37,103 nucleotides of DNA from Actinomycetota bacterium (lineage in GTDB: Bacteria; Actinomycetota; Acidimicrobiia; Acidimicrobiales; Ilumatobacteraceae), in the NCBI GenBank assembly GCA_009701715.1, contig WLJO01000024.1, positions 1 through 37,103 on the forward strand, written 5' to 3'. Below the pieces are notes generated by a model, which saw only the letters and a program-made list of their open reading frames with translations, searched no databases and was not told the origin of the DNA. Position numbers and translations under genes: made by a program. This document shows positions 27,114 through 36,530 of this stretch, piece after piece. Every line of letters begins with the position of its first letter. Position 1 is the first letter of the stretch.

Positions 27114-29159
27114 GTGACAGTGGAAGGTTCGGTCGACGAGGGGGAAGGTGTCGACCTCGCCCGCCTGCTCGTGCGGCTTGACCCGGACCAACGCGCCGCC
27201 GTCACGGCCCCGCCAGGCCCCGTTGCCGTCATCGCCGGTGCCGGTTCCGGCAAGACCCGGGTGCTGACGAACCGGATCGCGTACCGCATCGCCACGAAAT
27301 CGGCCGAGCCCTCGCACACGGTGGCCTTCACGTTCACGCGTCAGGCCGCAGCGGAGCTACAGCGTCGGCTTGCCCGCGAGGGCGTGGAACAATCCGTCGT
27401 GGCGGGAACGTTCCACAGCGTTGCGTACCGCATCCTGCGCAGGCGATGGGAGGACCGTGGGCGCCACGAGCCGCCGACACTGTCCACCAACCGCATCGAG
27501 GTGCTCACCGAACAGCTCAGAGGCGACCGGCGCCTCGCTGCCGTCACTGCCACCGAGATCGAGTGGGCGCGGGCCCGCCTCATTGGCCCCAAGGACTACC
27601 CGCGCGCTGCCACCTCAGCAGGGCGCCGGCCCGGGGCCGATGTTGAGCAGGTGGCGAAGCTGTTCGCAGACTTCGAGGCATACAAGCGCAAGCGACGCAT
27701 CCTCGACTTCGACGACCTGCTCTCGGAGTGCACAGCCGAGATCCGTCGACCCGGCGTCGCCGACGCGATCTCGTGGTGGCACCGTCACCTTCACGTCGAC
27801 GAGTTCCAGGACATCAACCCGCTGCAGTACGAGTTCCTCGAGGCGCTTCGCAACGGTGGGGACGACCTCTTCATCGTCGGCGACCCGGCGCAGGCGATCT
27901 ACGGCTGGAACGGGTCAGACTCAGGGTTGCTCGATGCCGTCCGCAACGGCCCACTGCGGCCGATCACGATCGAGCTGACCACCAACTACCGCTCAACGCC
28001 CGAGGTGGTCGATGCCGGCGACCGAGTGCTTGCCTCAAACCGCGTGGGCGGCGTGCACCGGGCCGACCGACCGAGCGGCCGGCAGATCATCACGGTGTCG
28101 TGTCGCGACGAGGCCGAGGAGTCACGCCGCCTTGTCGTGCTCGCCAACGAACTCCGCCCTCCGGGGGCGCGGTGGTCATCGGTTGCCGTGCTGGGGCGCA
28201 CCCACGAGATTCTCCGGCAGGCAGCCGTCGCGTTCGCCGCCGCAGGCATCCCGACGCGAACGGTCACGAGGCGCGGCATTGCGGGCGCGGCAGGCAACGA
28301 CCCGCTCCGGCCGGCGCGGTCAGCCGGGGACAGCCATGACCTCCATGCATGGGCGATTGATCTCGCGTGGCCGGGTGCAGGAACGGAAGGGTCCGACACG
28401 GTGGGGGACGACGGTCCGGGGCGAGGCGAGACCGACCCCGACGACGGCTCCACCCCAGCCGGAGACCCGCTCGACCCGGTCCGCCGGGCGATCGACACAG
28501 TGCGCGCCTTCGAGGAGACGGGCGGAGGTGATGGCCGGGCGTTCGCAGCGTGGATGGACCTGAACAACGTCGAATCGGCCGTCGAGGGCGATGCCGTCGA
28601 GCTCGTCACCATGCACGCGGCCAAGGGACGTGAATGGTCCACCGTGATCGTCGCGGGCATCGACTCTGTCGGCATGCCGGCACCGATCGCCTCACGGTCC
28701 GCTGCCCGTGCTGAGGAGGCTCGCCTGCTGTACGTGGCACTCACCCGTGCGGCAGACCGTCTCGCCATCACGTGGGCGGAAAAGCGCGGGGGCAAGAAGG
28801 CGGGGCGCAGCCCCCTGCTCCCGGACCTCGCACTGCGGGAGCCCGACGCCTCGGACGTCCCAGTACTCCTGCCCGAACGGCCACGGCCTGCCGCTGCGGC
28901 AGCACCGACGGCGGACCCGGGCGCAGCCGTGATGGCCCGGTTGAGGAACTGGCGTGCGGCAGCGGCACGCGCAGCCGGGGTCCCGGCCGCATTCCTGCTC
29001 GACGATCGCTCGCTCGACCGGATCGTGGCCACAATGCCCGTCACACAGGACGACCTTGCGGCAATCGACGGCATCGGGCCCCTGCTTGCCCGGCGCTTCG
29101 CCGGGCGAATCCTGCCGCTGCTCAGCGAGCCCGGTGGTTCTCGCCCCGCAGCGCAGTGA
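27114..29159 (+). CDS. uvrD2: UvrD/Rep superfamily 1A DNA helicase with C-terminal HRDC domain
   Basis: The protein is 681 aa, close to mycobacterial UvrD2. Helicase motifs run in order: LDPDQRAAV (Q), AGAGSGKTR (Walker A), AFTFTRQAAAELQRR (Ia), VDEFQD (Walker B), VGDPAQAIYGWNGS (III), TTNYRSTPEVV (IV), VTMHAAKGREWSTVIVAG (V) and LLYVALTRAADRL (VI). An HRDC domain closes the protein (about 610-675). It unwinds DNA in repair or replication. Between motif VI and HRDC, where mycobacterial UvrD2 has a four-Cys zinc module, this protein has an Ala/Pro-rich linker with no Cys. A Gly/Asp-rich insertion lies at about 420-460 in the 2B region. The last 38 bp overlap the opposing thioesterase gene. Confidence 0.9.
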   Translation: MTVEGSVDEGEGVDLARLLVRLDPDQRAAVTAPPGPVAVIAGAGSGKTRVLTNRIAYRIATKSAEPSHTVAFTFTRQAAAELQRRLAREGVEQSVVAGTFHSVAYRILRRRWEDRGRHEPPTLSTNRIEVLTEQLRGDRRLAAVTATEIEWARARLIGPKDYPRAATSAGRRPGADVEQVAKLFADFEAYKRKRRILDFDDLLSECTAEIRRPGVADAISWWHRHLHVDEFQDINPLQYEFLEALRNGGDDLFIVGDPAQAIYGWNGSDSGLLDAVRNGPLRPITIELTTNYRSTPEVVDAGDRVLASNRVGGVHRADRPSGRQIITVSCRDEAEESRRLVVLANELRPPGARWSSVAVLGRTHEILRQAAVAFAAAGIPTRTVTRRGIAGAAGNDPLRPARSAGDSHDLHAWAIDLAWPGAGTEGSDTVGDDGPGRGETDPDDGSTPAGDPLDPVRRAIDTVRAFEETGGGDGRAFAAWMDLNNVESAVEGDAVELVTMHAAKGREWSTVIVAGIDSVGMPAPIASRSAARAEEARLLYVALTRAADRLAITWAEKRGGKKAGRSPLLPDLALREPDASDVPVLLPERPRPAAAAAPTADPGAAVMARLRNWRAAAARAAGVPAAFLLDDRSLDRIVATMPVTQDDLAAIDGIGPLLARRFAGRILPLLSEPGGSRPAAQ

Positions 29160-29850
29160 GCTGCTCAAAGAACTCGGGCTTCATCGCGATGAACAGTCCC
29201 TCGGCCTCCGCACACAGCGTGTCCCCGGCGTGCAGCGTTGCCTCCACGAATACCTTGCGGCCGTCCTTGCGGATGAAGCGGGCCCGATAGACGATCTCGC
29301 GGAAGAGCGGTGTTGGCGAGCGGTAGCTGATGGTCAACCGGCCAGTCATGCCGACCTGGCCGGAGAGCCCCTGCGAGAGCCCGAGGATCTCGTCGAACCC
29401 TGCAGCGATGAACCCCCCGTGCAGGCACCCGGGAGGGCCCTCGTACACGAGGCCGTACGTTGCGCGCCCGACGACGAAATCCTCGCCCCACTCGATCGTC
29501 ATCGGCGGCGCGATCGGGTTCATCAGACCGATGAACGGGCTGTAGCTCGGGAACGGGCGCACCTGTGACGGCTGCAGCGAGCCCTCGGCCGGCTCGTCGT
29601 ACGGGCGTCCGTGCTCGCGACCAGCGAGAAGGTCCGCTGCGCGCTTCACGAGTTGCTGCGCCTCACGTATCGCGGCTGCGTCAGCAACCGTGGTGACCTG
29701 CTCATCGATGATCCGTCGGGTCGCGTCCGCGAGGTCCGCCTTGGCCTGCTCCACCGGCGTGAACTCGGCCGGGGCCGTGAACCCCTCCCGCATAAGCGGG
29801 CTCGGTCGTTCCGGGTCCAGATAACCCGCATCGAGAACCGCGTCAGCCAT
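29122..29850 (-). CDS. hotdog-fold thioesterase (PaaI-like)
   Basis: The protein is 242 aa from ATG 29850. The N-terminal 110 residues are mostly helical, with a possible coiled coil around EQAKADLADATRRIIDEQ. The hotdog domain occupies about 125-235: GLVYEGPPGCLHGGFIAAGFDE contains the HGG turn and the acidic residue of the PaaI/4HBT class, followed by GRLTISYRSPTPLFREIVYRA. It hydrolyses acyl-CoA thioesters. The start overlaps the exonuclease stop by 8 bp, so translation is coupled. The 3' end overlaps the helicase gene by 38 bp on the opposite strand. The substrate is unknown. Confidence 0.87.
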   Translation of the reverse strand: MADAVLDAGYLDPERPSPLMREGFTAPAEFTPVEQAKADLADATRRIIDEQVTTVADAAAIREAQQLVKRAADLLAGREHGRPYDEPAEGSLQPSQVRPFPSYSPFIGLMNPIAPPMTIEWGEDFVVGRATYGLVYEGPPGCLHGGFIAAGFDEILGLSQGLSGQVGMTGRLTISYRSPTPLFREIVYRARFIRKDGRKVFVEATLHAGDTLCAEAEGLFIAMKPEFFEQLTALRGENHRAR

Positions 29851-30616
29851 CGAGGTCCACCAACACGGGTGCGTGGTCCGACGGCTGCTGCCTCTTGCGC
29901 GCGTTGCGATCGATGATCGAGAACGAACAGCGCTGCGCAGTGCTCGCCGTGCCCAGCACGAGGTCGATCCGCATGCCGTGGCCCTTGTGAAAATCCCCGT
30001 TGCGGTAGTCCCACCAGGAAAAGAGCCCTGCCTCGTCGTGCTGCTCGCGGAACAGGTCCACCATGCCCCAGTCCACGAGCGCACCCAGCACATCGCGCTC
30101 GGGTTGAGAGATATGGGTGCCGCCCTCGTACGCACTCGCATCCCACACGTCGCGATCGTCAGGGGCAATGTTGAAGTCGCCCATCACGATCACGTCGTCC
30201 GACGGTGTGCTCTCGGCCGCCACGTGCTCCCTCAGCCGTGCCATCCAGTCGAGCTTGTAGCGGTAGTGGTCATTGTCCAGCGATCGCCCGTTGGGGACGT
30301 ACACAGAACTCACGCGCACACCGCCGCAGGTTGCCGACACGATGCGGGCCTCGTGATCGGGGGTGATGCCCGGCGCGAAGTTGTAGACCGGGCGCTCGAG
30401 GCCGACGCGGGACAGGAGTGCCACACCGTTCCACTGACCCTGGCCGTGATGGACCGAGTCGTACCCCATGGCCTGGAACGCGAGCCCGGGAAACGCGTCG
30501 TCGGCGAGCTTGGTCTCCTGCATCGCCAGCACATCGGGCTGCACCTCAGCGAGCCATTCCTCCACCCGAGGCAAACGGACCTTCAGCGAGTTGACGTTCC
30601 AGGTGGCGAATCGCAC
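29843..30616 (-). CDS. xthA: exodeoxyribonuclease III (AP endonuclease)
   Basis: The protein is 257 aa from GTG 30616, giving the canonical start RFATWNVNSLKVRLPRV. Further motifs are LAMQETKL (metal-ligand Glu), SVYVPNGR, VMGDFNIAPDD (Asp/Asn active site), GMRIDLVLG, and the C-terminal SDHAPVLVDL with the catalytic His. It cuts at abasic sites and removes 3'-blocking groups in base excision repair. The start is 7 nt after TACCGT, so it is likely leaderless. The thioesterase gene overlaps its stop. Confidence 0.95.
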   Translation of the reverse strand: MRFATWNVNSLKVRLPRVEEWLAEVQPDVLAMQETKLADDAFPGLAFQAMGYDSVHHGQGQWNGVALLSRVGLERPVYNFAPGITPDHEARIVSATCGGVRVSSVYVPNGRSLDNDHYRYKLDWMARLREHVAAESTPSDDVIVMGDFNIAPDDRDVWDASAYEGGTHISQPERDVLGALVDWGMVDLFREQHDEAGLFSWWDYRNGDFHKGHGMRIDLVLGTASTAQRCSFSIIDRNARKRQQPSDHAPVLVDLDG

Positions 30617-30639: not shown

Positions 30640-32073
30640 TCAGCGGCGAGCACCCCGGGGGGCCGCAGCCTTCTTCGCCGGAGCCTTCTTGGCCGGAGCA
30701 GCAGCCTTCACGGGGGCCTTCGCCACAACCTTCTTCGCCGGAGCCGCAGCCTTCGGGGCAACCTTCTTCACCGGGGCCTTCGCCACAGCCTTTGTCACCG
30801 GAGCCGCAGCCTTCACCGGGGCCTTCGCCACAACCTTCTTCGCCGGAGCCGCAGCCTTCACCGGGGCCTTCGCCACAACCTTCTTCGCCGGAACTGCCTT
30901 CTTGGCCGGAGCAGCAGCCTTCACCGGGGCCTTCGCCACAACCTTCTTCGCCACAACCTTCTTCGCCGGAGCAGCAGCCTTCACGGGGGCCTTCGCCACA
31001 ACCTTCTTCGCCGGAGCCGCAGCCTTCGCAGCAACCTTCTTGGCAGCAGCGGCAGGTTGCTTAGCCACAGGTTCCTTCTGTGCCGGGCGCTTGGCTCCCC
31101 GTCGTGCACCCGTTGTCTTCGTCGGGCCGGCAGCCTCGCCCGACGCCGGCACCATGCCGGGCAGTGCGAGGTCGATGCCGCGACGCCCCGGGTTAAACCC
31201 TGCAACCACGAGCGGCACCGCGTCGCTCATACCGATCATCTCCCGCGCGCTGCGCGGCGGCGGGTTCGACATCAGTCGCATGGGCACGTAGCCGAACACG
31301 TCACCGACCGCCACGTAGGCACCGTGCGACGAGTACGAGACCACGGTGCCGTTGACCGTGGATCCCACCGGATGGTGCTCCACGAACCCGAGGAAGGAGA
31401 GCAAGTCGTTGGTGTGCTGCGGCGGGGTCGACACGCTGGTCGAGGTGGCCGAGGGCACGAGTGCAGGAGCGACCTCCTTGGCAGCACCCCTTCCGCTCCC
31501 CCGACGACGGCCCTTGGTCCCACGATCGCCGAGTGTTGCTCCCGGCGGCGGCGCCTTGGGAACCGGCATTGGCTGGTTCGCTTCCTTGCTCGCCTTGGTG
31601 GGGCGTACGTCGCTGCGCTTGCGCTTGGCGTCCTTGACCGACTGGCGACTCTTGGGGCCGCGCACCGGGACCCGGTTGATGAACACCCATCCGATATTGG
31701 GAACCGGCTTGCCGCCGATGAGGCGGCCCTCGTCGAACAGCCAGTCGTACTGGCCGTGGAACTCCTGGTACGAGTCGTTCGAAAGGATCGTTGCGCTCTT
31801 CTTGTCGGCGATCGCGAGCACAAACCCGTCACCACGGCCGACGGCCCCTGCGGGGGGCGCCACGATCTCGTTGTTCTCGACAGCCTCGTTGAAGTCGTCG
31901 ATCTCCTTGGGGTCGATCCGGTGCCCGAAGGTCGCGTCGACGACGACGCTGATCTTGTCGCCCGGGTTCTCCTCCATAAAAGCGAGAACAGCCTCGTTCA
32001 ACTGCCTGAGACTCGGCATCGTCCGCCCTTCGGTGGCGATGTTCGAACCGTCTACCACGACCAATCTGGACAT
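30640..32073 (-). CDS. NYN/Zc3h12a-like ribonuclease fused to an S1-like domain and a histone-H1-like tail
   Basis: The protein is 477 aa with three parts. Residues 1-140 form a NYN/PIN-type nuclease resembling the Zc3h12a group: VVVDGSNIA (Asp8), VVVDATFGHR (Asp46), GRGDGFVLAIADKKSATILSND (Asp82, 90, 100), then WLFDEGRLIGG. Residues 141-220 are a basic linker (KRKRSD, KGRRRGSGRG). Residues 236-306 look like an S1-type OB fold (VGSTVNGTVVSYSSHGAYVAV). From about 320 the chain is a Lys/Ala/Pro/Val tail built from repeats of KVVAKAPVKAAAPAK, like histone H1 or HupS tails. The likely role is a metal-dependent RNase held to RNA or the nucleoid by S1 and tail. No leaderless -10 is seen before the ATG. 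Confidence 0.85.
   Translation of the reverse strand: MSRLVVVDGSNIATEGRTMPSLRQLNEAVLAFMEENPGDKISVVVDATFGHRIDPKEIDDFNEAVENNEIVAPPAGAVGRGDGFVLAIADKKSATILSNDSYQEFHGQYDWLFDEGRLIGGKPVPNIGWVFINRVPVRGPKSRQSVKDAKRKRSDVRPTKASKEANQPMPVPKAPPPGATLGDRGTKGRRRGSGRGAAKEVAPALVPSATSTSVSTPPQHTNDLLSFLGFVEHHPVGSTVNGTVVSYSSHGAYVAVGDVFGYVPMRLMSNPPPRSAREMIGMSDAVPLVVAGFNPGRRGIDLALPGMVPASGEAAGPTKTTGARRGAKRPAQKEPVAKQPAAAAKKVAAKAAAPAKKVVAKAPVKAAAPAKKVVAKKVVAKAPVKAAAPAKKAVPAKKVVAKAPVKAAAPAKKVVAKAPVKAAAPVTKAVAKAPVKKVAPKAAAPAKKVVAKAPVKAAAPAKKAPAKKAAAPRGARR
30650..31055 (-). repeat. tandem degenerate repeats coding the Lys/Ala/Pro tail
   Basis: A unit of about 45 bp coding KVVAKAPVKAAAPAK recurs five times nearly intact, together with shorter variants (KAVAKAPVKKVAPK and KAVPAKK). 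On the plus strand it reads as repeats of ccggagccgcagccttcacc. Near identity between units at the DNA level suggests recent expansion by slippage or unequal exchange, so copy number may vary between strains. Confidence 0.9.
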
Positions 32074-32146: not shown

Positions 32147-32794
32147 ATGCGTACCGTGATTTTCTGGGATTTCGGCGGGGTCATCCTGTCCAGTCCCTTC
32201 GAGGCCTTCAACCACTACGAGGTGGCAAAAGACCTGCCCAAGGACTTCATCCGCACGGTGAACGCCACCAATCCGGACTCCAATGCGTGGGCCCTGCTCG
32301 AGCGTTCGGACATCACCCCGGACCAGTTCGACAAGAAATTTGCCGCCGAGGCCGCCGAGAAGGGCCATCACGTGCCCGGGGCAGACGTGCTCGCCCTCCT
32401 TCAGGGCGACATTCGGCCCGCAATGGTGCAGGCACTCCACCGCATCAAGGCTGCAGGGCTACCCCAGGCATGCCTCACGAACAATGTGGTCAGCCACGGC
32501 GATGGGGTGACCGACCGGGCCCGCACCGACCGTCAGCGGGCAATCAACGACATCATGGCGATCTTCGACACGGTTGTCGAGTCCAGCAAGGTGGGCTGCC
32601 GCAAGCCGGAAACCCGCTTCTACGAGATCGCCTGCGAGGCGATGAAGGCCGACCCGAACAACGTCGTGTTCCTCGACGACCTCGGAATCAACCTCAAGCC
32701 AGCAGCGGCCCTCGGGATGCACACCATCAAAGTTGTCGACCACATCGAGGCGCTCCGCCAACTGGAGTCTGCGATCGGGCTCGAATTGCTGTAA
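32147..32794 (+). CDS. HAD-superfamily hydrolase
   Basis: The protein is 215 aa. Motif I is IFWDFGGVI: the nucleophile Asp8 is present, but the residue two positions on, usually Asp, is Gly, as in the ACAD10/YihX-like DxG subgroup. Motif II is the CLTNNV segment. Motif III Lys lies in CRKPETRFYEIAC and motif IV acids in VVFLDDLGINLKPAAALGM. An alpha-helical cap lies between about residues 18 and 90. The likely role is a phosphatase or dehalogenase on a small molecule; the substrate is unknown. It diverges from the ribonuclease fusion gene (73-bp gap) and converges on kgd. Confidence 0.87.
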   Translation: MRTVIFWDFGGVILSSPFEAFNHYEVAKDLPKDFIRTVNATNPDSNAWALLERSDITPDQFDKKFAAEAAEKGHHVPGADVLALLQGDIRPAMVQALHRIKAAGLPQACLTNNVVSHGDGVTDRARTDRQRAINDIMAIFDTVVESSKVGCRKPETRFYEIACEAMKADPNNVVFLDDLGINLKPAAALGMHTIKVVDHIEALRQLESAIGLELL

Positions 32795-32939: not shown

Positions 32940-35900
32940 TTAGAGCCCGGCGAAGGTTTCGTCCATCAGTTCGGCGAGTTCCTGGTCGTGGACAACCTTG
33001 GAGCCCGTCGCCGGGCTGCCGGTTGCCACGCGCGCCACGTGCCAGAGGTCGTAGCCACGCTGCTTGAGCCTCCACGAGCGGTGCTCGAAGAAGGTCCAGG
33101 CGCCCATGTTCTCGGGCTCCTCCTGCAGCCAGACAACTTCCTTGGCGTTCGGGTAGGTGGCGAGCACCTGGTCGATCTGCTCCTGCGGGAACGGATAGAG
33201 CTGCTCGACGCGCACGACGGCTGCCGCGGCGTTGCGCTTGGCCCGCTCGGCCATGGCGTCCCAAACCACCTTGCCGCTGCAGAGCACGACACGACGGACC
33301 TGCTCCTTCGGGACAACGAGGTTCGGATCGTCGAGAACCTCCCAGAAGTGACCGGCGGTGAGGTCGTCCACGTGGGACATGCTCTCCTTCATGCGCAGCG
33401 GCGCCTTCGGGGAGAAGATCACGAGTGGACGGAGTACCTCGAGCTGGGTCTGACGGCGCAGCAGGTGGAAGTACTGGGCGGCCGTGGTGGGGTTGGCCAC
33501 CTGCAGGTTGTCCTCCGCGCAGAGTTGCAGGAAGCGCTCGATCCGGGCGCTCGAGTGCTCGGGGCCCTGTCCCTCGAAGCCGTGCGGCAGGAGCATGACG
33601 AGGCCGTTGTGCTGGCCCCACTTGTCCTCTGCTGCAACGAGATACTGGTCGATGATGATCTGAGCACCGTTGACGAAGTCGCCGAACTGGGCCTCCCAGA
33701 GCACCAGCGCGTCGTGGTTGGCCTGTGAGTACCCGTACTCGTAACCGAGTGCGGCGTACTCCGACAGCAGTGAGTCGTAGACCCAGAGCCGGTTCGGTGC
33801 CCCCGGGATGTGCGCGAGCGGCGTCCACCGCTTCCCGTCCTCGTAGTCGGTGAGCGTGGCGTGGCGGTGGCTGAACGTGCCCCGTCGCGAATCCTCGCCG
33901 GCGAGGCGAACGGGCACACCCTCCATGAGCAGCGAGCCGAAGGCGAGCGCCTCTCCGATGGCCCAGTCGACGGTGCCGTTGTTGTTGTAGGCAGCAGCCC
34001 GCAGTTCAAACTGCTTGGCGAGCTTCGGGTGGACGCGGAAGTCCTCGGGATATGCCGTGAGCGTGTTGAACACCGTGTCGAGCGCGCCGCGCTCCACACC
34101 CGTCTGGATCCACGGAAGGACCCCGACAGGCGTCGGCGGCTTGGGTGCCTTGACGTGGGCGGGCAGATGCGCCCGCGTGTCGTCGAGGACGGACTGCAAG
34201 CGGCCCTGGTATTGGTTGAGCATCTGCTCGGCCTCGTCCAGTGTCAGCACGCCCCGGCTGATGAGTTCCTCGACGTACAACTTGGCCACCGGGCGGTGCT
34301 GCGCAATGGCCTTGTACATCTGCGGCTGCGTGTACGACGGGTCGTCGCCCTCGTTGTGGCCGTGACGGCGGTAGCAGACGAGGTCGATGACAACGTCCTT
34401 GTGGAATGCCTGGCGGTACTCGAACGCGAGCCGGGCGACACGGAGGCACGCCTCGGGGTCGTCGGCGTTCACGTGGAAGATCGGGGCCTGAACGGTCTTA
34501 GCCACGTCGGAGCAGTACGGCGACGAGCGAGAGTACTCCGGCGACGTGGTGAAACCGATCTGGTTGTTGATGATGATGTGCATCGTCCCGCCGATGCGGT
34601 AGCCGGCGATATCGCACATCGCGAGACACTCGGCGACGATGCCCTGACCTGCGAAGGCTGCATCACCGTGGATGAGGATGGGAAGTATGGGGTATGACAG
34701 CGGCGGGTCGATCTGGTCCTGACGGGCACGGACGATGCCCATCACAATCGGGTTCACGGTCTCGAGGTGGCTCGGGTTGGCCGCTAGTTCGACAGCGATG
34801 TCCGCGCCCTGCGGGGTCACGTACTTGCCGGTAGCACCGAGGTGGTACTTCACGTCGCCGGAACCCTGGAACAGGTTCGGTCCGAGGTGGCCCTCGAACT
34901 CACGGAAGATCTGGTCGTAGCTCTTGCCGACGATGTTCGCGAGCACGTTGAGGCGACCGCGGTGGGCCATACCGATGACGGCGCCCTCGAGGTGCTCCTC
35001 GGCAGCCGAGGACAGGATGCCGTCGAGCACCGCAATGGTGGACTCGCCGCCCTCGAGGCCGAACCGCTTGGTGCCGACGTACTTGGTGGCGAGGAACCGC
35101 TCGTACGCGTCGGCCGTCGTGAGGCGCTCGGCGAGCCAGCGCTTCTCGTCACGTGTGAACTGGGTGGGTACACCCTCGAGACGGGACTGGATCCACTCCT
35201 GCTCGTGCAGATCATGGATGTGCATGTACTCGATGCCGATCGTGCGGCAGTAGGTGTCGCGGAGCACCTCGAGCAGTTCCGCAAGCTTCATCCGGTCCTT
35301 GCCAGCAACACCGCCGACGAGAAACTCACGCTCGAGGTCCCAGATGCTCAGCCCGTAGTGCTCCGGGGCCATCTCGTCGAGCAGGCGCGGTTCTTTCCAG
35401 CGCAGCGGGTCGAGATCGGCCATGAGGTGCCCACGGACGCGGTGCGAGCGGATGAGGCTCGAGATGGCCATCTGCTTGCGCAGCATGGACTCCTCGCGGT
35501 TGACGGGGCTGGAGTCGATACCCCAGCGCACCGGCTCATAGGGCACTCCGAGGCTGCGGAAGACGAGGTCGTAGAAGCCGTTCTCGCCGATGAGGTTCTC
35601 GTGCAGCCGCTTCAGGAACATGCCGCTCTCGGCACCCTGGATAATGCGGTGGTCGTACGTGCTCGTGACCGTGACAACCTTCGACACGCCGAACTCCACG
35701 AGCGCGCTCACGTCTGCGCCCTGGAACTCGGCCGGGTAGTCGATGGATCCGACGCCGACGATGACGCCCTGACCGGGCATCAGGCGCGGAACCGACTGAA
35801 CGGTGCCGATGGTGCCCGGGTTGGTGAGGCTGATCGTTGCGCCAGCGAAGTCGGACACCGCCAACTTGTTCGCCTTGGTCTTGCGGATGAGCGCGTCGTA

Positions 35901-36530
35901 GGCATCGAGGAACTCGACGAAACTCAGGGCCTGCGCGTCACGCAGCACGGGCACCATGAGTGTGCGCGTTCCGTCGCCCTTGTCCACATCCACGGCGAGG
36001 CCCATGTTGATCGACGAGCGCCTGACGAGCAGCGGCTTGCCGTCGGCGCCCTCGGCGAACCCGTTGTTCATGTTGGGCACGGCATCAGCGATGGCGCGCA
36101 CGATGGCAAACGCAATGATGTGGGTGAAGCTGACCTTGCCCATACCGACCCGCGAGCGGTACGAGTTGATGCCTTGGCGGTTGACCTCGAGGAGCCGCGC
36201 CGGGATATTCCGGAAGCTCGTCGCCGTGGGAACCTCGAGGCTCCTCGTCATGTTTGCGGCGATGGCGGCCGCCGTGCCACGGATCGGTTCACCCTCGGCG
36301 GGTGCCGCCGCAGCGGGCGCTACGGCCGCCGGAGCTGCGGCGGGGGGTGCCGCAGGGGCGGGCGCGCTCACCGCGGCGGGTGCCGGGGCAGCGGGCGCAA
36401 CCGGCAGCACGTCGGTCTGGAAAAATGCGCGCCAGGCGTCGCTTACCGAGTTGGGGTCTGCGAGGTACTGGGCTCGAAGCTCGTCGACGAGCCAAGCGTT
36501 CGCGCCGAACTGTTCTTGTTCAATGGCCAC
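32940..36530 (-). CDS. kgd: multifunctional 2-oxoglutarate decarboxylase/dehydrogenase E1-E2 (Kgd/OdhA)
   Basis: The protein is 1196 aa in one chain, the actinobacterial form. An N-terminal E1-type helix (NAWLVDELRAQYLADPNSV) is followed by an Ala/Pro linker (about 43-80). Next is an E2-type acyltransferase domain (about 83-325) with His294 in TYDHRIIQGAESG. The thiamine-dependent E1 domain follows (about 340-1196), with HGDAAFAGQG and the NNQIGFTT thiamine-site segment and a conserved CRRHGHNEGDDP. There is no lipoyl domain, as is usual for Kgd. It decarboxylates 2-oxoglutarate and, with lipoylated E2 and E3 from elsewhere, makes succinyl-CoA. The GTG start follows TAGGGT at 6 nt. Palindromes lie upstream. 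Confidence 0.97.
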   Translation of the reverse strand: MAIEQEQFGANAWLVDELRAQYLADPNSVSDAWRAFFQTDVLPVAPAAPAPAAVSAPAPAAPPAAAPAAVAPAAAAPAEGEPIRGTAAAIAANMTRSLEVPTATSFRNIPARLLEVNRQGINSYRSRVGMGKVSFTHIIAFAIVRAIADAVPNMNNGFAEGADGKPLLVRRSSINMGLAVDVDKGDGTRTLMVPVLRDAQALSFVEFLDAYDALIRKTKANKLAVSDFAGATISLTNPGTIGTVQSVPRLMPGQGVIVGVGSIDYPAEFQGADVSALVEFGVSKVVTVTSTYDHRIIQGAESGMFLKRLHENLIGENGFYDLVFRSLGVPYEPVRWGIDSSPVNREESMLRKQMAISSLIRSHRVRGHLMADLDPLRWKEPRLLDEMAPEHYGLSIWDLEREFLVGGVAGKDRMKLAELLEVLRDTYCRTIGIEYMHIHDLHEQEWIQSRLEGVPTQFTRDEKRWLAERLTTADAYERFLATKYVGTKRFGLEGGESTIAVLDGILSSAAEEHLEGAVIGMAHRGRLNVLANIVGKSYDQIFREFEGHLGPNLFQGSGDVKYHLGATGKYVTPQGADIAVELAANPSHLETVNPIVMGIVRARQDQIDPPLSYPILPILIHGDAAFAGQGIVAECLAMCDIAGYRIGGTMHIIINNQIGFTTSPEYSRSSPYCSDVAKTVQAPIFHVNADDPEACLRVARLAFEYRQAFHKDVVIDLVCYRRHGHNEGDDPSYTQPQMYKAIAQHRPVAKLYVEELISRGVLTLDEAEQMLNQYQGRLQSVLDDTRAHLPAHVKAPKPPTPVGVLPWIQTGVERGALDTVFNTLTAYPEDFRVHPKLAKQFELRAAAYNNNGTVDWAIGEALAFGSLLMEGVPVRLAGEDSRRGTFSHRHATLTDYEDGKRWTPLAHIPGAPNRLWVYDSLLSEYAALGYEYGYSQANHDALVLWEAQFGDFVNGAQIIIDQYLVAAEDKWGQHNGLVMLLPHGFEGQGPEHSSARIERFLQLCAEDNLQVANPTTAAQYFHLLRRQTQLEVLRPLVIFSPKAPLRMKESMSHVDDLTAGHFWEVLDDPNLVVPKEQVRRVVLCSGKVVWDAMAERAKRNAAAAVVRVEQLYPFPQEQIDQVLATYPNAKEVVWLQEEPENMGAWTFFEHRSWRLKQRGYDLWHVARVATGSPATGSKVVHDQELAELMDETFAGL

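Follow-up and report, generated by a model that had tools for sequence, protein, structure and literature searches.

We describe a gene on the minus strand of an Ilumatobacteraceae contig (WLJO01000024.1 of assembly GCA_009701715.1), of which positions 1 to 37,103 form the window analysed here. It encodes a 477-amino-acid (aa) protein in which a Regnase/Zc3h12a-type NYN nuclease domain is followed by a basic linker, an S1 domain and a long cationic tail, and it is conserved in part of a single bacterial class, Acidimicrobiia. With moderate confidence, we favour the view that this is a class-specific housekeeping metal-dependent endoribonuclease of RNA turnover, tethered through its S1 domain and tail. 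The kinds of domain are known already, and automatic annotation would name the nuclease and S1 domains; what is new is their combination, its spread and its locus.

Architecture of the protein

The gene and its domains were delimited as follows.

30640..32073, minus strand: whole gene of the NYN-linker-S1-basic tail protein, 477 aa, ATG start, no internal stop
31609..32073, minus strand: NYN / Regnase-type PIN nuclease domain, residues 1-155 (PF11977 and fold matches to MCPIP1, ZC3H12C, KHNYN and PRORP)
31417..31608, minus strand: basic linker, residues 156-219, holding the motif PMPxPxxPPP (168-177)
31150..31416, minus strand: S1 (OB-fold) domain of the ribosomal protein S1 type, residues 220-308 (PF00575 and fold match to M. 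tuberculosis S1 residues 280-367)
30643..31149, minus strand: Lys/Ala/Pro/Val-rich tail, residues 309-477, with imperfect DNA repeats of periods 15, 21, 33, 45, 60 and 105

Both folded domains were recognized by Pfam above the curated cut-offs: PF11977 (RNase_Zc3h12a) at residues 2-108 (E 1e-7, 32.3 bits, cut-off 23) and PF00575 (S1) at residues 234-303 (E 7.6e-7, 29.9 bits, cut-off 22). No NCBIfam model matched the whole protein, the partial matches being to ribosomal S1 models only. By calculation, residues 1-146 have an isoelectric point (pI) of 4.9, the S1 part one of 6.4 and the tail (309-477) one of 12.0, and none of the 477 residues is a cysteine. The three-part layout of nuclease, S1 domain and tail had been claimed in a first-pass annotation of the window, and it is right and better supported than was claimed there. 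The same annotation knew of no characterised bacterial protein with this combination. Our searches of open-licence papers also turned up none, nor any report of a lysine-repeat tail on a ribonuclease.

The nuclease domain

Relatives were aligned in two sets chosen for diversity, A1 with 26 sequences and A2 with 75 of the 88 distinct NYN open reading frames (ORFs); the 88 come from fetched loci only, not from all genomes with a match. PF11977 was matched in all 75 relatives of A2 (E up to 0.1). As a single sequence the protein matched ZC3H12A in PDB weakly (E 0.24), and the profile of the 75 relatives matched ZC3H12A/B/C and KHNYN at E 5e-5 to 1e-3.

In an AlphaFold2 model of residues 1-308, built with 26 sequences, the nuclease is partly weak (predicted local distance difference test, pLDDT, below 50 at residues 103-123 and 129-143), and Foldseek found Regnase with this model at E 1e-4. 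The model of residues 1-180, built with the 75 relatives, has a pLDDT of 87.7 and a predicted template modelling score (pTM) of 0.76, and its 29 Foldseek hits at E up to 1e-3 are all Regnase, ZC3H12B, ZC3H12C, KHNYN or PRORP. In VIA comparisons, it aligns with MCPIP1 (3v32) at Z 14.0, with a root-mean-square deviation (rmsd) of 2.6 Å over 128 residues, and with PRORP2 at Z 13.2, PRORP1 being likewise among the top fold matches (Z about 13). Rae1 stands well below the Regnase rows (Z 8.1, rmsd 3.8 Å over 110 residues), a ranking only, with which kinship is still compatible. The PF11977 score over the cut-off, the profile match and the fold match at Z about 13-14 bear out the proposed assignment to the Regnase/Zc3h12a type.

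Four invariant Asp codons were located in the domain.

32050..32052, minus strand: D8, Regnase D141 position (ZC3H12A alignment)
31936..31938, minus strand: D46, extra Asp after the second strand (alignment and model), with a possible role considered below
31828..31830, minus strand: D82, Regnase D226 position, with Gly81 just before it at the D225 position (alignment)
31774..31776, minus strand: D100, Regnase D244 position (alignment)

Residues D8, N11, D46, Gly81, D82, N99 and D100 are identical in 75 of the 75 aligned relatives, and the alignment to ZC3H12A places D8 and N11 in the DGSN motif. The number D141 is what we take the Regnase counterpart of D8 to be, and it also follows from the chain numbering in the VIA comparison if this is ungapped. 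In the model, D8 lies at the end of strand 1, D82 at the start of a helix and D100 after a strand, a placement expected of a PIN active site. A Regnase-type PIN fold is present in the model, and the carboxylates would cluster in it, judging from fold and alignment; as far as these go, the second check proposed in the first-pass annotation, on clustering of the acidic residues in a PIN-type site, came out in favour. The first-pass statement that the acidic residues are intact holds for the three-Asp NYN set (D8, D82 and D100) and fails for the fourth Asp of Regnase: three of the four positions of the Regnase set carry Asp, and the D225 position is Gly81 in every aligned relative.

The three-Asp set is described as the active-site core of the B. 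fragilis NYN enzyme, MARF1 and VPA0982, and the B. fragilis enzyme no longer cleaved when its D13 was changed to Ala (excerpt of PMC11346440). For Regnase-1, an excerpt of PMC4772114 states that there are four catalytic Asp, naming D225, D226 and D244, and that the D226N/D244N double change inactivates the enzyme, while all four Asp of PRORP1 are described as essential in an excerpt of PMC5039416. Since the three-Asp B. fragilis NYN works, and since D226 and D244, needed in Regnase-1, are both kept, we think that the nuclease would be catalytically active. D46 is a possible fourth carboxylate or metal ligand.

With Regnase-1/ZC3H12A-C and KHNYN the protein shares the nuclease fold (Z about 13-14), PF11977, the DGSN motif and Asp at the D226 and D244 positions. 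It differs from the Regnase/ZC3H12 proteins in the Gly at the D225 position and in the absence of the CCCH zinc finger, as expected without any cysteine; it has the S1 domain and the charged tail instead, and it is bacterial. PRORP shares the NYN fold (Z about 13), and its first signature motif, in a simplified form, occurs in 75 of the 75 relatives; however, the second NYN signature of PRORP, DDx15-39(S/T)xDx3DH (excerpt of PMC5039416), occurs in 0 of 75, and the genomes retain RNase P RNA. The NYN/PIN-type fold is also shared with Rae1/YacP (NYN_YacP, PF05991), Rae1 being a bacterial RNase that acts with the ribosome, but this is the farther fold match (Z 8.1) and a separate YacP-type gene exists in the same genome (match at G000:C3:45037-45393). 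At E up to 0.1 the 75 members matched 12 families, and PF05991 was none of these.

The S1 domain and the linker

From residue 221 onward, the S1 part of the 1-308 model has pLDDT block means of 92-97, and M. tuberculosis S1 is at the top of the Foldseek matches of this model (E 2e-6). By VIA it aligns with residues 280-367 of M. tuberculosis ribosomal protein S1, which we take to be domain 4, at Z 14.5 and rmsd 1.4 Å over 85 residues. The region predicted to be OB/S1-like folds as S1/OB, then, in a fold test set beforehand. The S1 domain is shared with ribosomal protein bS1, but here it is a single domain fused to a nuclease, and its face is altered with respect to E. coli S1 187-259, with His250 for Tyr, Tyr253 for Phe and Pro264 for His.

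Within the linker, the motif PMPxPxxPPP has an invariant P170, and P168, P172, P176 and P177 are present in at least 90% of the 26 rows of A1. This short motif (31543-31572, minus strand; residues 168-177) is conserved amid an otherwise variable linker, and is perhaps a docking motif.

The cationic tail

Residues 310-477 (168 aa) include 63 Ala, 40 Lys, 24 Val and 21 Pro, with 46 Lys and Arg against 2 Asp and Glu. The Lys/Ala/Pro tail, put at about 150 residues in the first-pass annotation, is present, and its description as histone-H1-like holds for composition only: the Pfam H1-like HC2 model (PF07382) gave no match to the whole protein at E up to 1. In the same genome this model does recognize two other proteins (E up to 1e-4), and for one of these the score exceeds the curated cut-off.

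A DNA pattern for Pro-Ala-Lys-Lys-Ala (PAKKA) had 33 matches in the genome of the window and 2 for the reversed control. Among the ORFs inspected behind these matches, Pfam identifies HU (PF00216), topoisomerase I (PF01131) and a stand-alone H1-like HC2 ORF (PF07382), and two of the pattern places (C18 and C77) yielded no ORF under the filter used. Two similar ORFs of this genome (L165 and L166) have N-terminal PAKKA repeats, are cut by contig ends and match no Pfam family; a 'DksA/TraR-like' label for them was dropped, given the absence of a Pfam match, and was not used as evidence.

Among actinobacterial proteins, TopA, HrdB, Ku and HupS are known to bear lysine repeats; Ku and HupB need theirs for contact with DNA, and the lysine-repeat domain of TopA raises processivity (excerpt of PMC7398561). 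The protein shares H1-like lysine repeats with these actinobacterial proteins (TopA, HupB/HupS, Ku, HrdB), but here they are on a predicted ribonuclease. Since HU and topoisomerase I carry similar PAKKA repeats in this genome, and since actinobacterial Ku and HupB depend on theirs to contact DNA, a coupling to the nucleoid or to nascent RNA would be possible. The tail is plausibly a tether to DNA or RNA, with no indication of which of the two.

Leaving out 8 incomplete ORFs, a Lys/Arg-rich low-complexity Ala/Pro stretch was present in all 80 complete proteins. It is C-terminal in 75 of them, in many of which the linker is rich too, and solely between NYN and S1 in the other 5, so its presence is kept more than its position. 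In L079-L083, the Lys/Ala/Pro repeats (Arg/Ala/Pro in L083) are found only between NYN and S1 and the protein stops at or just after S1, a natural case of tail relocation. A 30-residue K/R-rich low-complexity window was present in 41 of 41 NYN proteins. Among the neighbour families, it was found in kgd (6/49) and uvrD (5/31), and in none of the xth (0/35), ettA (0/25), 4HBT (0/21), bPH (0/18) and HAD (0/31) proteins. The K/R-rich stretch is in the NYN proteins more often than by chance.

Distribution of the family

Matches covering S1 alone were not counted as carriers. Within the same family, 56 of 61 genomes have a match, one of which (G049) is a fragment of 35 residues. Carriers of the NYN part make up 72 of the 118 genomes in the order sample (two further hits being S1 only), 68 of the 197 in the class sample, where 6 lie outside the order (six more S1 only), and 16 of the 246 in the phylum sample, all 16 inside the class (ten more S1 only). 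In each of the 30 carriers tested, PF11977 was found once, over the cut-off; the 26 non-carriers tested (20 of the order, 6 of the class outside it) gave no match, so that these genomes, at least, are without the domain.

When 84,980 species genomes were scanned with the single protein, a search sensitive to close relatives only, 14 loci were recovered. Their group titles are Acidimicrobiia, Acidimicrobiales, Acidimicrobiaceae and Ilumatobacteraceae, the rest being Actinobacteria, Actinomycetes and Actinomycetota, and it is on these titles that the class name rests. The nearest relative is on an Acidimicrobiales metagenome-assembled genome contig (CANIBN010000057.1), with 97.5% identity over the first 160 residues.

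A survey for the same domain order had been suggested in the first-pass annotation. In the fetched loci, NYN followed by S1 in the same frame recurs, beyond what chance would give, in 87 of the 88 NYN ORFs, and the remaining one (L043) runs off its contig.

Genomic context and inheritance

The neighbouring genes in the window are the following.

29843..30616, minus strand: xth, exodeoxyribonuclease III (TIGR00633), 23 base pairs (bp) downstream of the NYN-S1 gene
32147..32794, plus strand: HAD hydrolase (PF00702), divergent neighbour
32940..36530, minus strand: kgd, multifunctional 2-oxoglutarate decarboxylase/dehydrogenase (NF008907), upstream
27114-29159, plus strand: short UvrD/PcrA-like helicase with an HRDC domain, well below equivalog cut-offs, convergent neighbour in many loci

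The comparison covered 41 carrier loci, the window and 40 fetched ones, as far as the available stretches extend. Upstream and on the same strand, kgd was found in 33 of the 41; the divergent HAD gene is upstream, and next among the probes, in 27; and 25 have xth downstream, on the same strand. From the stop codon to the start of xth there are -1 to 23 bp in 8 of the 23 loci measured, and 23 bp in the window, where the two genes are likely co-transcribed. An ABC-F gene resembling ettA lies downstream on the same strand in 7 of the 41 loci, with a gap of 98-264 bp in 7/7, and 12 of the 41 have an ettA-like ABC-F gene on the opposite strand, upstream of kgd.

Empty sites were also observed. Among 20 non-carriers, 16 have kgd, and the NYN-S1 gene was seen in none of these 16 stretches, two of which (L170 and L185) are short. 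In three non-carriers the neighbours close up, leaving, by alignment ends, about 170 and 94 bp between HAD and ettA (L171 and L177) and about 42 bp between kgd and ettA (L174). The median distance is 0.45 for NYN and 0.48 for kgd (33 loci). Distances are correlated for NYN and kgd (r 0.59, n 33), close to the kgd-xth control (r 0.62, n 33), and also for NYN and xth (r 0.60, n 31) and NYN and ettA (r 0.41, n 20); in a permutation check, 0 of 2000 were as high for each correlation. From the synteny, the empty sites and the distance correlations, we read the history of the gene as mainly vertical inheritance with repeated loss.

Proposed function and alternatives

In the tethered housekeeping endoribonuclease that we favour, the Regnase-type NYN domain would cut single-stranded RNA, with D8, D82, D100 and perhaps D46 holding Mg or Mn. 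The S1 domain would select or hold RNA, and the cationic low-complexity stretch would keep the acidic nuclease (pI 4.9) near polyanions, which could be RNA, ribosomes or the nucleoid. Working beside RNase E/G, it would most likely serve to turn over mRNA, or control its quality, on polysomes or nascent transcripts. The architecture, the folds, the conservation of the acidic residues, the single PF11977 gene of each carrier genome tested, the synteny and the vertical signal are computed results; that the enzyme is active, on which RNA and with what tether partner, we infer. RNase E/G was found in 29 of 30 carriers, the single miss being carrier G172, and in 26 of 26 non-carriers, and so we suggest that the NYN-S1 protein adds to it; a replacement of RNase E/G was rejected, as it is present in 55 of 56 genomes.

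Several observations weigh against this reading. The Gly81 found in all relatives departs from the Regnase active site, and the three substitutions on the S1 face depart from E. coli S1. The NYN part is missing in 46 of the 118 sampled genomes of the order, which can thus do without it. The charge rule has an exception, L061, with a net charge of -4 over linker and tail. In one locus outside the 88 ORFs (L188, G094:C3:78191-79218), NYN and S1 are in different frames, by frameshift or assembly error. The neighbours are mostly metabolic or DNA repair genes (kgd, xth, UvrD-like) and are different outside the order, where the five loci lie elsewhere, with rhodanese and FAD-dependent glycerophosphate-oxidase-like genes nearby. 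With neighbours of these kinds and two locus types, the gene context is a weak guide to function and names no pathway.

Two of the alternatives are narrower versions of the tethered housekeeping endoribonuclease. The protein could be a ribosome-dependent mRNA endonuclease like Rae1, which is a ribosome-associated A-site endoribonuclease (excerpt of PMC6613710): with S1 and tail anchored at the small subunit or mRNA channel, NYN would cut the mRNA of slowed ribosomes. We regard this as possible, if rather unlikely. The S1 domain is closest to those of ribosomal protein S1, and the ettA-like ABC-F gene is found downstream or beyond kgd in the 7 and 12 loci given above, but this link is regional and missing at the other locus type, and the nuclease model is nearer to Regnase/PRORP (Z 13-14) than to Rae1 (Z 8.1). 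A YacP (Rae1-family) match occurs in 17 of 30 carriers, the genome of the window included, and in 9 of 26 non-carriers, one of the 9 being under the curated cut-off; a replacement of Rae1/YacP was accordingly set aside, as the counts show no such pattern. It is doubtful that the tethering is to the nucleoid or to transcription, with an H1-like tail on DNA and the nuclease trimming nascent RNA or the RNA of R-loops. The PAKKA repeats that HU and topoisomerase I carry in this genome, the TopA processivity and the Ku/HupB DNA contact cited above (excerpt of PMC7398561) and the proximity of xth, within 23 bp downstream in 8 of the 23 measured loci, would agree with it. However, cationic tails bind RNA as well as DNA, 5 of the 80 proteins have the stretch internally only, a gene other than xth comes next in ettA-type loci and the Pfam H1-like model does not match the tail. 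In a more speculative form, which we hold to be unlikely, a Regnase-type endoribonuclease moored by HU/TopA-like repeats and reading RNA via S1 would cut nascent or translating RNA in place, at the interface of nucleoid and polysomes. If true, this would be an RNA-decay route of one bacterial class, beside RNase E/G, and its nuclease would be of a kind known chiefly for its part in eukaryotic immunity and tRNA processing.

The remaining explanations depart further from a tethered enzyme of RNA turnover. The presence of PRORP1 and PRORP2 among the best fold matches (Z about 13; Foldseek E from 1e-5) could point to the processing of stable RNA (tRNA or rRNA), but this is improbable: all 23 genomes tested, including 19 carriers, have bacterial RNase P RNA (RF00010), by which a PRORP-like replacement of RNase P was rejected, the second PRORP signature is in none of the 75 relatives and the Pfam scan of the protein gave no PPR family. 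A non-catalytic RNA-binding protein, its enzyme killed by the Gly at the D225 position, seems very improbable. Gly81 is in 75 of 75 and the four Asp are essential in PRORP1 (excerpt of PMC5039416), but the minimal three-Asp NYN set is invariant in the 75, a three-Asp NYN enzyme is active (excerpt of PMC11346440) and the invariant D46 could supply the fourth carboxylate. A part in defence, which had also been proposed in the first-pass annotation, did not gain support, and an antiviral or abortive-infection nuclease is hardly to be expected here. Precedents are a CRISPR-associated NYN ribonuclease in B. fragilis (excerpt of PMC11346440) and NYN domains in animal immunity-type proteins (excerpt of PMC8195603). 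Against it, the locus is core and syntenic, with one copy per carrier tested and a vertical signal; PHROGs and PADLOC gave no match to the protein, and no relative was found in 50,697 phage records, 72,556 plasmid records or IMG/VR viral contigs. The same lack of phage, plasmid and viral-contig matches leaves a mobile origin unsupported.

Regnase-type nucleases have been studied mainly as animal immune regulators, and PRORP as a eukaryotic tRNA-processing enzyme. Here, a structural relative is conserved across much of a bacterial class, together with RNA-binding and H1-like parts. It is a named candidate for the RNA-decay biology of Acidimicrobiia, and a simple system for asking what a cationic tail does for a nuclease.

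Additional observations

The promoter/terminator and Rfam scans of the window returned nothing useful. In one genome outside the 88 ORFs (G126), the NYN and S1 parts lie on separate contigs, in both cases at or close to the end. Some carriers also contain short NYN relatives that PF11977 does not flag (G076:C36, G068:C1:187152, G115:C130, G172:C1:3995088 and G287:C28). These are open frames of 153-267 aa that match the first 77-94 positions of the family profile at E 1e-9 to 1e-14.

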